A stretch of DNA of 64,000 nt from Lentisphaerota bacterium. Its GTDB lineage: Bacteria > Verrucomicrobiota > Lentisphaeria > Victivallales > UBA1829. Each line of letters opens with the position of its first letter. Position 1 is the stretch's first letter. The DNA is taken from positions 1-64,000 of the forward strand of contig SUVR01000010.1 of assembly GCA_015061915.1 (NCBI GenBank), written 5' to 3'. Below the pieces are notes generated by a model. The model was not told the origin of the DNA, ran no database searches, and worked only from the letters and a program-made list of their open reading frames with translations. The position numbers were made by a program, and so were the translations under genes. Below are positions 36,900 through 53,635 of the stretch, in pieces.

Positions 36900-37178
36900 A
36901 TGACAAGATCAATCAAAAAAGGTCCCTTTGTGGACTACTATCTCATCGAGAAGATCGAAAAGATGGAAAAGGCCGGCGGCGCCAAGAAGGCGATCAAGAC
37001 TTGGTCCAGACGTTCGATGATCATTCCGGAATTTGTTGGTTATACCTTCAACATTCACAACGGCAAGACCTTTGTCTCCGTGTTTGTCACGGAAAACATG
37101 GTCGGTCACAGACTCGGTGAATTCGCCCCGACCCGTACGTTCAAGGGTCACGGCGTTATCTCCGGTAAGACTGTCTGA
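36900..37178 (+). CDS. rpsS: 30S ribosomal protein S19
   Basis: [22 protein letters not shown]...[50 protein letters not shown]. Confidence 0.99.
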
Positions 37179-37208: not shown

Positions 37209-37242
37209 AACGGGATGCAGGAAACTGCATCCCGTTTTTTTG
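37209..37242 (+). terminator. Strong intrinsic terminator after rpsS
   Basis: AACGGGATGCAG-GAAA-CTGCATCCCGTT, 12-bp perfect stem with GNRA tetraloop followed by a T-tract. Confidence 0.92.
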
Positions 37243-37270: not shown

Positions 37271-37397
37271 GCGGCGCAGGCGCAGCAGCCGGACCGCCGG
37301 AAAGGCGGTCCGCAGCCCCTTTACGCTGGCGTAAAGGGGGCAGCCCTTGCAGTGACCGGATTCCGGTCACACAAGGGCGCTGCTGCGCCTGCGCCGC
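37271..37397. repeat. Nested palindrome (cloverleaf-like element 1): 19-bp perfect outer stem enclosing three hairpins
   Basis: GCGGCGCAGGCGCAGCAGC (37271-37289) pairs with GCTGCTGCGCCTGCGCCGC (37379-37397). Inside: CGGACCGCC/GGCGGTCCG (37290-37312), CCCCTTTACG/CGTAAAGGGG (37316-37339), GCCCTTG..GTGACCGG/CCGGTCAC..CAAGGGC (37343-37378). Confidence 0.85.
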
Positions 37398-37403
37398 GTG
37401 CTT

Positions 37404-39029
37404 TTACGCTTCGGTATGAAGGATCAGGGCGGAGGGACCGGTAATGATCGTGTTATGGGCAACTTTCGCCTGTGTCTGGAGGGCGAACAATCCTTTACAG
37501 TTGGTATGGGGGACATAATGTGGCCATGCGGAGGAGGAGACGTCGAGTCGGATTTGATCTCCGGGGAAGAACCGGATGGCGATCTCATCCATCATAAAAT
37601 CCAGTTCCGCTTCTGTGCCGGGGGTGTAATCGGGATGCTTTTTGCAGATGGAAAGGATATCGTCCCGCAGTCCGTATGCGATGCCATTATGGACTCGGCT
37701 CAACCGCACATAGAAACATGTATCTTCACAATCGCTTTTTATGGTCAGTTTCACGTGAGACCGCCCGAGCATAAGAAATGATTCTTCCAGCGGTTCGGAA
37801 ATGAACGACTTGATATCGTATCTGGAATTTGGCGGATCCTGTTCCTGTGAGCCGCCAAAATTGCAGCAGCATCCGCCCTTGAACGGAGCGGGTGCAAAGG
37901 GATTGTAGAGGTAGCTGACTTCACCGGTATCTGCAGTTGATCCCAGCGAGCCGTTGCTGTTCAGAAACCAGATTTTTTCTGTTTTACCCTCGTTGATGTG
38001 GTCTGCAGTAATCCATTTTCCCTCGTTAATGCTGTAATATTTCACTTTCCCAAGTTCGACGAAATCGGGGGTATCTTTTTTCCCAGCGGCGAAATTTGCC
38101 CAATCCTGACAACAATCTTTCCACACATCATCCAGTCTTGCGAACGGGTATGCGGTCTTACCGTTTCCTCCGGTGTAGCCATGATCGTATGGCGTGATGA
38201 CGAGTGCGCTTTTGGCTTTGAGTGCGGCAGGCATCCGGTTCCACATATCGATCACGCCGCCAGTATAGATATCGAACCATGAAGTAAAGAGCAGGACGGG
38301 CACATCCAGCCTATTGAGTGCGTCCACAAAATTTCCACCGCCTTCCTGTGTCTGCCAGTAGGGATCGTTTTCATCGGGATGCATCAATAGGTTATCGAGG
38401 ATGGGTACATCTTCGCCGAAGACCGCTTTAGAGAACCCGGACAGCGGGAGCATCCGGAAAGCATCGTCGGTATAATTTTTTTCTGCTTTTTTGTTGTACA
38501 TTTTTGCGAACCAGCTGCCATGGAGTCCGATTTTCAGGAATCCGTTCCGGTACGCGATCCGGTATCGGGTATCGTCCTGAACGGCGAGGACGCAGCCTTT
38601 GATACATTTCGGAGCATGTTTAAGATAGGAAAGATGTACGCTGGAAAGATAGCTGCCACCGTTGGGATAGATCTCTCCGTTGCTGTACGGCAGGGCGCAG
38701 AGGGCATCCAGCGTGTCGAGACCGTCGGCTTCCTCCTGCTGGTAGGTGAGATTTTTCCCTTCGCTGCGTGCGGTGCCGCGGCAGTGCTGAAGCACAACGC
38801 CGAATCCGCTTTTGAACGCGGAATAATGCCAGTTACAAGTTTCCTGATAAACAGGTTTGATGCCCTCGTACGGACTCCGGAGGAAAACCAGCGGGACTTT
38901 TTCCCTGTTGGCGGGGCGGACGATAAGCGTATAAAGCTTTACGCCATCGCGCATGGGCATCATCTGTTCTTCAATGATGAGGTCGATGGGGGGCTGCATA
39001 CCATCGCTGCCATAGGATGTGAGCTGCAT
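37404..39029 (-). CDS. CocE/NonD family hydrolase (X-Pro dipeptidyl-peptidase-like)
   Basis: 541 aa; MPMRDGVKLYTLIVRPANREKVPLVFLRSPY, nucleophile region GGSYLSS, C-terminal jelly-roll-like region. Confidence 0.85.
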   Translation of the reverse strand: MQLTSYGSDGMQPPIDLIIEEQMMPMRDGVKLYTLIVRPANREKVPLVFLRSPYEGIKPVYQETCNWHYSAFKSGFGVVLQHCRGTARSEGKNLTYQQEEADGLDTLDALCALPYSNGEIYPNGGSYLSSVHLSYLKHAPKCIKGCVLAVQDDTRYRIAYRNGFLKIGLHGSWFAKMYNKKAEKNYTDDAFRMLPLSGFSKAVFGEDVPILDNLLMHPDENDPYWQTQEGGGNFVDALNRLDVPVLLFTSWFDIYTGGVIDMWNRMPAALKAKSALVITPYDHGYTGGNGKTAYPFARLDDVWKDCCQDWANFAAGKKDTPDFVELGKVKYYSINEGKWITADHINEGKTEKIWFLNSNGSLGSTADTGEVSYLYNPFAPAPFKGGCCCNFGGSQEQDPPNSRYDIKSFISEPLEESFLMLGRSHVKLTIKSDCEDTCFYVRLSRVHNGIAYGLRDDILSICKKHPDYTPGTEAELDFMMDEIAIRFFPGDQIRLDVSSSAWPHYVPHTNCKGLFALQTQAKVAHNTIITGPSALILHTEA

Positions 39030-51520: not shown

Positions 51521-52675
51521 ATGGCTACTCTCCTCCTCAAAAATTGTCATCTCATCTCGCCCGATGTGGATCTGCCCAACGCTGCAGTCCTGATCGAAGG
51601 CGAAAAAGTCAAACGCATCTTCGCTCCCGGCGATGCTCTCCCCGCTGCAGACTCCGTCATGGATATGGAAGGCGATATGGTCATGCCCGGTTTCGTGGAT
51701 GTCCATTGCCACGGCAGAAGCGGTGAAGATTTCTGCGATGCCACGGATAACGCCATCACCACTATGGCAGTCGATAAACTGAAAGAAGGCGTGACAACCC
51801 TCCTGCCCACCACCCTGACTCTGGCAGAAGATACATTGGCGACCGCTCTTCAGACCGCCGCAAATTATGTGAAATCCGGCGTCAAAGGCTGTAAAGTTCC
51901 CGGTGTCCATCTGGAAGGTCCCTTCATCAACCCGAAGTGCCTCGGCGCCCAGAATCCCGACTTTGTCCGCAAGCCGGATATTGAAGAAGTCAAACGCCTG
52001 AATGCCGTCTTCCCGGTCAGCAAAGTTTCCTTCGCGATTGAAATGGATGGCGCACCGGAATTTGCCGCTGAACTGCTCAGCGAAGGGATCACTCCCTCCT
52101 GTGTTCACAGCGCCGCCACCTTCAAACAGTTCCAGGAAGGCAAGGACCACGGTCTGGTCAACCTCAGCCACTTCTGCAACCAGATGACCGCTCTCCATCA
52201 CAGAGATATCGGTCTGGTCGGCGCCGGCTTCTTTTACGATGAAGTCTACATCGAATTCATCTGCGATACCCTGCACATCTGCCCGGATATGATCAGTCTC
52301 GTGTTCCAGCTCAAGGACATCGATCACATCCAGCTCATCACCGACGCCATGCGCGCCGCCGGTATGCCGGAAGGCGAATATACCCTCGGCGGTCTGCCCG
52401 TGATCGTGAAGGATGGCGCCGCACGCCTCGCCAGCAACGGCGCTCTCGCCGGCAGTACCCTGCAGCTTTGCGATGCCCTCAAAAATGTGTATGAAATCAC
52501 CGGAATGGATCTGGATGTCCTCGTCCGGACAACATCCTGGAACCAGGCTCGCGCCCTCGGCTTTGAAGGCATCGGTAAGATCGAACCGGGCTTCTTCGCC
52601 GATATCGTGGTTCTGGATGATGACTTCAAGGTCAAAAAGACCTTCGTCAACGGCGAACTGCGCTACTCCGCATAA
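51521..52675 (+). CDS. nagA: N-acetylglucosamine-6-phosphate deacetylase
   Basis: 384 aa; PGFVDVHCHGRSGEDF...HLEGPFINPKCLGAQN...ITDAMRAAG. Confidence 0.96.
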   Translation: MATLLLKNCHLISPDVDLPNAAVLIEGEKVKRIFAPGDALPAADSVMDMEGDMVMPGFVDVHCHGRSGEDFCDATDNAITTMAVDKLKEGVTTLLPTTLTLAEDTLATALQTAANYVKSGVKGCKVPGVHLEGPFINPKCLGAQNPDFVRKPDIEEVKRLNAVFPVSKVSFAIEMDGAPEFAAELLSEGITPSCVHSAATFKQFQEGKDHGLVNLSHFCNQMTALHHRDIGLVGAGFFYDEVYIEFICDTLHICPDMISLVFQLKDIDHIQLITDAMRAAGMPEGEYTLGGLPVIVKDGAARLASNGALAGSTLQLCDALKNVYEITGMDLDVLVRTTSWNQARALGFEGIGKIEPGFFADIVVLDDDFKVKKTFVNGELRYSA

Positions 52676-52687
52676 GCATAAGACGAC

Positions 52688-52861
52688 AGATCTGCGCATC
52701 AGCCGCAAGGCGGCGCAGCAAAAAGCCAGCCGGAAAGCCGGCTGGCTTTTTTGCGCTTTTTTCCGGACGGCAAAAATGCCGCCGTCCGGAAAAAAGAAAA
52801 ACGCAACTGCGCTTGCAGTTGCGTTTCGGCGCCGCCCTGCGGCTTGATGCGCTGTAGATCT
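52688..52861. repeat. Nested palindrome (cloverleaf-like element 2): ~28-bp imperfect outer stem enclosing three perfect hairpins
   Basis: GATCTGCGCATCAGCCGCAAGGCGGCGC (52689-52716) vs GCGCCGCCCTGCGGCTTGATGCGCTGTAGATC (52829-52860). Hairpins: GCAAAAAGCCAGCCGG/CCGGCTGGCTTTTTTGC (~52718-52754), CTTTTTTCCGGACGGC/GCCGTCCGGAAAAAAG (52756-52796), AAACGCAACTGC/GCAGTTGCGTTT (52799-52826). Confidence 0.85.
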
Positions 52862-52870
52862 TCCGCCCGG

Positions 52871-53611
52871 TCAGAACGAGACGTTCACATCGCCGGAGAG
52901 TTTCAGCGGTTTGGGAATGAGTTTGATCCCGGCGGGTTCGCCGGACCAGTCAAAGTTTTCCCACTTGTTGAACATCAGGGGATCGGTGGGGTCGCCCAGG
53001 GGGTTCAGATCGGTGATCAGAACTCTGCCGGAGGAGGTGTAATAGACATCCACCGCCACATCTTTCAGGGGCAGAGCCCAGCCGTTTTTTTCGATGAATT
53101 TTACTGCTTTTTCCCACAGTTTCTTTTCCTGTTTTTCAAAGCGGGCGTAATGACGCTTCAGCCAGTACTGGCTCATGGCAAACAGTTTGCCGTCCTTCAC
53201 GAACAAACGGAATTCACGGGCGGGTTCCATATTCCGGTACGGACGGATACAGATGCTGGTGACTTCGCCCCGTTTCGCGGATTCCCGCACTTTTTCGCTG
53301 GAGACAAGCACATCCCAGGCACTTTTGGCGGACCGGACTGCACCGCCTTTTTCTTTGAATCGTTCGGTGTCGGTCGGCGCTGCAAGGTCAACGGAGAAGA
53401 AGCGGAAATAGCTGAAATTTGCCAGCAGCGGTTTGATCCGGGCAATGACTTGTTTCGCAGCGGTACAACTGGATTTTTCACCGTCTGCCAGTGCTTTGAT
53501 CTCTTCCGGAGCAAGGGAAACGAAGGCAGTCGGCAGACTGAAGGCGGAAAGTTTCGGATACCAGTTCGGCAGTCGGCACTGATCGAGGGTCGGATCAAGT
53601 TGATTTGACAT
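52871..53611 (-). CDS. Bacterial CDC123/D123-like ATP-grasp family protein
   Basis: CIRPYRNMEPAREFRLFVKDGKLFAMSQYW ... VAVDVYYTSSGRVLITDLNPLGDPTDPLMFNKWENFDW, resembling the D123 EFR.FV and D.....V.L.DFNP motifs. Confidence 0.75.
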   Translation of the reverse strand: MSNQLDPTLDQCRLPNWYPKLSAFSLPTAFVSLAPEEIKALADGEKSSCTAAKQVIARIKPLLANFSYFRFFSVDLAAPTDTERFKEKGGAVRSAKSAWDVLVSSEKVRESAKRGEVTSICIRPYRNMEPAREFRLFVKDGKLFAMSQYWLKRHYARFEKQEKKLWEKAVKFIEKNGWALPLKDVAVDVYYTSSGRVLITDLNPLGDPTDPLMFNKWENFDWSGEPAGIKLIPKPLKLSGDVNVSF

Positions 53612-53635
53612 GATTCGTTTTCCTTTCATTTGTCC

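Follow-up and report, generated by a model that had tools for sequence, protein, structure and literature searches.

The gap between nagA and the convergent gene for a D123/CDC123-like protein holds a nested palindrome that folds as a cloverleaf, and the locus raises a question for which its genome offers many natural replicates: what does an outer stem add to a bidirectional terminator? The features concerned, numbered within the window (the whole 64,000-nt stretch of DNA that was analysed, contig C4 of a 2.49-Mb genome in 31 contigs), are the following.

51521–52675, + strand: nagA, N-acetylglucosamine-6-phosphate deacetylase (TIGR00221, 280.7 bits, above cut-off)
52688–52861, no strand assigned: the whole cloverleaf (four-way junction), element 2 (fold z and covariance-model match)
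52688–52716, no strand assigned: outer stem, left strand, whose inner part GGCGGCGCAG contains the word CGGCGCAG (fold)
52718–52754, + strand: arm 1, a GC hairpin followed by T-tracts (TTTTTTGCGCTTTTTT, 52746–52762), an intrinsic-terminator-like site for nagA (terminator scan)
52756–52796, no strand assigned: arm 2, with a base formed by the left T-tract paired with the right A-tract and a G+C extension above it (sequence and sister comparison)
52798–52827, − strand: arm 3, a hairpin followed by TTTTTCTTTTTT, an intrinsic-terminator-like site for the D123-like gene (terminator scan)
52829–52861, no strand assigned: outer stem, right strand (fold)
52871–53629, − strand: D123/CDC123-like (ATP-grasp type) protein (PF07065, E 1.6e-19), present in 35 of 41 sampled genomes (own genome counted)

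Element 2 is a four-way junction in which an outer stem of about 28 bp with small bulges (52688–52716 paired with 52829–52861) encloses three near-perfect hairpins: arm 1 of 14–16 bp (terminator-scan stem 52720–52751, 14 pairs), which also has A/T tracts of its own; arm 2 of 16 bp, flanked by TTTTTTCCGG..CCGGAAAAAA; and arm 3 of 12–13 bp (52799–52826; terminator-scan stem 52827–52798, 13 pairs). The coordinates, arms and gaps that the initial annotation had given are correct (nagA stop at 52675, element start at 52688, opposing stop at 52871). The minimum free energy of 52670–52880 is −130 kcal/mol when folded as RNA, compared with −75.8 ± 4.8 for 200 dinucleotide shuffles (z −11.4), none of which (0/200) folds as low, and DNA parameters give the same fold with z −13.2. 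The idea that such structures are chance folds of G+C-rich intergenic DNA or an assembly artefact retains practically no likelihood; it is refuted by these values, by a shuffled genome that yields not one three-arm fold in the highest quality band, and by the recurrence of the elements in a sister-species MAG that was assembled independently.

On both strands of element 2 the terminator scan detects a strong site, + (52720–52751) and − (52827–52798). Each is a G+C-rich hairpin followed directly by a T-tract on the strand of the gene it faces, and each lies just 3' of a stop codon, the element beginning ~12–13 nt past the nagA stop and ending ~9–10 nt from the opposing stop. Arm 2 has the wrong polarity for a terminator alone; its T- and A-tracts serve arm 1 (+ strand) and arm 3 (− strand), respectively.

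When the whole window is folded in sliding 180-nt segments, elements 2 and 1 stand out as the two extreme outliers, and element 1 is the only peer of element 2 within the 64 kb. Its surroundings are as follows.

36900–37178, + strand: rpsS (ribosomal protein S19), to the left of element 1 (PF00203)
37271–37397, no strand assigned: element 1, the second of the window, with the three-arm architecture and without T-tracts (fold)
37404–39029, − strand: CocE/NonD-type hydrolase (S15 peptidase), convergent with rpsS (profile match)

Folding of 858 kb of the same genome (the window plus L008–L027 and L059–L078; 34% of the genome) yielded 24 elements, about 28 per Mb, or ~70 genome-wide by extrapolation. 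Each of the 24 consists of an outer stem with exactly three arms, and strong one-, two- or four-arm structures were not found in the 858 kb; an independent scan of predicted intergenic gaps set 22 very-low-energy gaps apart from the rest, all of them three-armed, again with no strong one-, two- or four-armed forms. Junction linkers measure 0–3 nt (mostly 0), and the outer stem and arms are long and nearly all Watson-Crick, G-U pairs being rare (20/880 in the convergent elements). The sequences themselves share only short words (GCTTTTTT, CGGCGCAG and TTTCCGGC): CGGCGCAG is present in 10/24 elements, the most frequent 8-mers occur in 10–11 and at most 11 of the 24, and the best match between any two elements is 63 nt at 79%. 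The earlier observation that the two window elements combine one architecture with mostly different sequence is thus borne out, and extends to all 24. Gene context, which rests on a simple heuristic gene caller built for this analysis, is convergent for 13 elements (enrichment in convergent gaps, p = 1.8e-6), tandem for 10 and divergent for 1; the convergent setting described at the outset is therefore right for element 2 and for 13/24, while other elements sit in tandem gaps beside a single stop. In nine of the ten tandem gaps the element begins no more than 30 nt from the upstream stop, and these nine keep a distance of 69 nt or more to the next start.

The arrangement of T- and A-tracts across the 23 parsed elements points to transcription termination. 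A T-tract follows arm 1 in 15 of them and an A-tract precedes arm 3 in 13, compared with 6 of 92 for such tracts on all other arm sides (p about 1e-11 for the contrast), and these tracts are mostly the two strands of the arm 2 base (GCTTTTTT...AAAAAAGC). The complete two-strand signature, in which each strand has a terminator and the T- and A-tracts face each other, is present in 13/23 and absent from element 1; tandem-gap elements show the same two-sided signature though just one gene ends there. The bidirectional-terminator look that the initial annotation saw in two arms thus holds for element 2 in having sites on both strands, but not for arm 2 taken alone, and not for every element.

Judged from sequence, the element is probably, though by no means certainly, two intrinsic terminators set tail to tail and built up into a closed cloverleaf, and termination in both directions is its best-supported predicted function. 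The transcript of the left gene would run through one strand of the outer stem, arm 1 and the T-tract, and stop there; that of the right gene, on the other strand, would run through its outer strand, arm 3 and its T-tract, and likewise stop. Between the two hairpins the complementary T- and A-tracts would form the base of arm 2, and it is because the tracts between two facing terminators pair in this way that the arms would always number exactly three. This genus would have extended arm 2 with a G+C stem and turned the flanks into an outer stem of 15–30 bp.

That outer stem is where termination alone falls short. Where RNA polymerase stops at a T-tract, the outer stem cannot form in that RNA, so the longest and strongest helix of the element is not explained by termination alone; its place of action must then be read-through RNA or DNA, unless it serves as a symmetric 3' leader copy on both transcripts. 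With low confidence we favour a role in read-through RNA, as an exonuclease block or RNase III target: the whole would there fold into a compact four-way junction, perhaps blocking 3' exonucleases or offering RNase III a target, and so limiting antisense extension. Nor can termination be the whole story for the 8/23 parsed elements, element 1 among them, that have no T-tract after arm 1; and since element 1 has no T-tract of any kind and rpsS has an ordinary terminator of its own beside it (at about 37214–37241), termination cannot be the only role of element 1. These elements without T-tracts retain the full fold, which would suit an RNA-level 3' element in which the full cloverleaf sets mRNA ends, either by blocking 3'–5' exonucleases or through cleavage by RNase III, with the T-tracts secondary. 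The long, nearly all Watson-Crick outer stem and arms and the position right after stop codons fit this account as well, but pure stability does not require so strongly ordered a T-tract polarity and one mRNA has no need of two-strand symmetry, and we consider it unlikely.

Comparison with a sister species supports the paired structure. The sister is represented by the water-deer caecum MAG RGIG8655 ('Lentisphaeria bacterium'), whose D123-like protein is 95% identical to the one here; the comparison is of this one species, through an incomplete MAG, at 16 loci (15 plus L029). A three-arm element is kept at 9 of the 12 scorable orthologous loci, unscorable loci being those (L112, L114, L121, L122) where the sister contig stops at or before the element. 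Contigs that stop at or near elements suggest, as an observation in its own right, that short-read assemblies break at these palindromes and that draft genomes contain too few of them. At the element 2 locus of the sister, arms 1 and 3 have identical stems, but the place of arm 2 is taken by another hairpin, TTTTCAGC..GCTGAAAA, which is shorter. Sequence-only alignment of the nine element pairs gives 442 unchanged base pairs, 67 single changes, of which 48 break the pair (many of them adjoining indels), and 28 double changes, of which 18 restore a Watson-Crick pair, compared with about 2.3 expected by chance. The stems are thus conserved, with the compensatory changes that the initial annotation had proposed looking for. 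When the count is instead conditioned on the fold and restricted to base pairs that both species form, double changes number 15 and single changes 4.

This excess of double over retained single changes, together with the very low number of G-U pairs in the convergent elements and a structure that works equally on both strands, is what might be expected of an element acting in DNA, as a cruciform or single-strand four-way junction (for protein binding, or as a topological or replication barrier) with the terminators as a by-product. Positive supercoiling between convergent genes, however, disfavours cruciform extrusion, and transcription is indicated both by the polarity of the T-tracts and by the plain terminator pairs of other genera (below), which makes a primary DNA-level role improbable.

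The three loci at which the sister has no element (L109, L111 and L120) carry unrelated sequence there, which at L109 is an ordinary terminator just past the stop; no precisely joined empty site occurs among them, and no target duplication was noted. These absences at 3/12 orthologous sites, along with a uniform architecture in ~70 expected copies within a single genus and a Y1_Tnp domain fragment in the genome, could speak for a palindrome of the MITE or REP/BIME-like kind that is mobile and inserts itself behind stop codons. We give this only a slim chance: the copies have nothing but short words in common, their outer stems differ so that no terminal inverted repeats are shared among copies as in MITEs or IS derivatives, nine of the twelve sites are common to both species, and the tail-to-tail terminator logic is conserved. 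Nor are the arms independent insertions, as had been raised at the outset, the whole three-arm unit being present at orthologous sites. Both species also contain an intergenic repeat of another kind (GGAGGAGCGCGGGATCACAGCCTATGGGCTTGCCCATAGG..; beside the match at L111, and at L018:4387–5188), which in one case sits where the other species has a cloverleaf.

Three genomic explanations for such palindromes were also rejected. A RAYT/REP origin is contradicted by the content of the genome, which has only the one Y1_Tnp domain fragment; this Y1 transposase (PF01797) fragment lies in a 94-aa frame (G000:C1:73958–74134, L164), and no link to the elements was seen. Tolerance of palindromes through loss of SbcCD fails because the genus has SbcD and SbcC, and several element-free relatives are without clear matches. 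Compensation for loss of Rho fails because Rho is present.

The terminator-pair reading gains from the distribution of the elements. In 1.08 Mb scanned by folding, drawn from other families and from other genera of the same family, there were 0 elements, against ~30 expected at the density seen here. A covariance model built from ten elements, with both window elements left out, recovers element 2 on either strand (E about 1e-4 over 858 kb) and has many matches in genomes G000 and G001; element 1 was not listed at E <= 1. Multiple strong matches occur only in this genus, represented by two species, within a 61-genome set (60 relatives) and a 145-genome phylum sample, the other relatives and the phylum sample having only isolated weak matches, an absence that is relative since the model search has a prefilter and loses weak members. 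One weak match (L196) overlaps a tRNA gene. Most of those in other genera are plain tail-to-tail intrinsic terminators, running hairpin, T-tract, A-tract, hairpin, as in L187 (GCGTCCGG..CCGGACGC-TTTTTTTTT-GCGTGATCCAT-AAAAAAAA-CTGCGGC..GCCGCAG). The tracts of such plain pairs are able to pair as a minimal arm 2, and their flanks pair over 5–9 bp, compared with 8–26 bp for most pairs of this genus. A tail-to-tail terminator pair from another family (L217, genome G074) is flanked by 6 bp of complementary sequence (GATTTC/GAAATC), which may be a minimal outer stem or a coincidence.

What this genus adds is the long outer stem, together with the G+C portion of arm 2. We infer that plain pairs are ancestral and that the change ran from plain to closed, which offers a plausible evolutionary path from the back-to-back terminators of related genera to a closed four-way junction. 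A further proposal, which we hold tentatively and somewhat doubt, is that the closed cloverleaf constitutes a class of intergenic element in its own right, with conservation of architecture only; its outer stem and G+C arm 2 would serve a purpose additional to termination (forming a four-way junction, in RNA or DNA, that acts on transcripts that read through or converge) and would have evolved in this genus from plain tail-to-tail terminators. In either case the signal has a conserved architecture and nearly free sequence, and is repeated across one genome of a little-known gut bacterium (class Lentisphaeria).

Searches based on sequence repeats or RNA families would miss such elements, as Rfam does here, where nothing reaches the gathering score and the sub-threshold matches are generic hairpins; the tRNA model has no match at the element (the tRNA matches of the window lie elsewhere), and the phage collection has no match to it. 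In the open-access literature searched, no equivalent cloverleaf, nested-palindrome or four-way-junction terminators were found, and the known systems resemble the elements in part. The repetitive hairpin and double-hairpin elements of mitochondrial DNA (PMC2800124) are likewise structured intergenic palindromes; they are mobile organelle repeats, seemingly without terminator logic or a four-way architecture. REP/BIME and other intergenic palindromic repeats also place many short palindromes at gene 3' ends, but REPs are sequence families, whereas the elements described here conserve architecture instead of sequence and have no family-wide REP-like sequence. Paired DNA uptake sequence terminators of Neisseria and Pasteurellaceae are, like these elements, genome-wide palindromes enriched in tail-to-tail regions, and have a conserved word of 9–11 nt in hundreds to thousands of copies (PMC1852404); no single word of that length occurs in most copies here. 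The closest likeness is to the bidirectional intrinsic (Rho-independent) terminators of tail-to-tail genes surveyed with TransTermHP (PMC1852404), which share the GC hairpins, the T-tract downstream on each strand and the location in convergent gaps or past stops. Those consist of one hairpin with A/T tails or of two hairpins (PMC1852404), whereas the elements of this genus combine two terminators with a T/A-based central arm and a 15–30 bp outer stem that closes a four-way junction, with three arms throughout.
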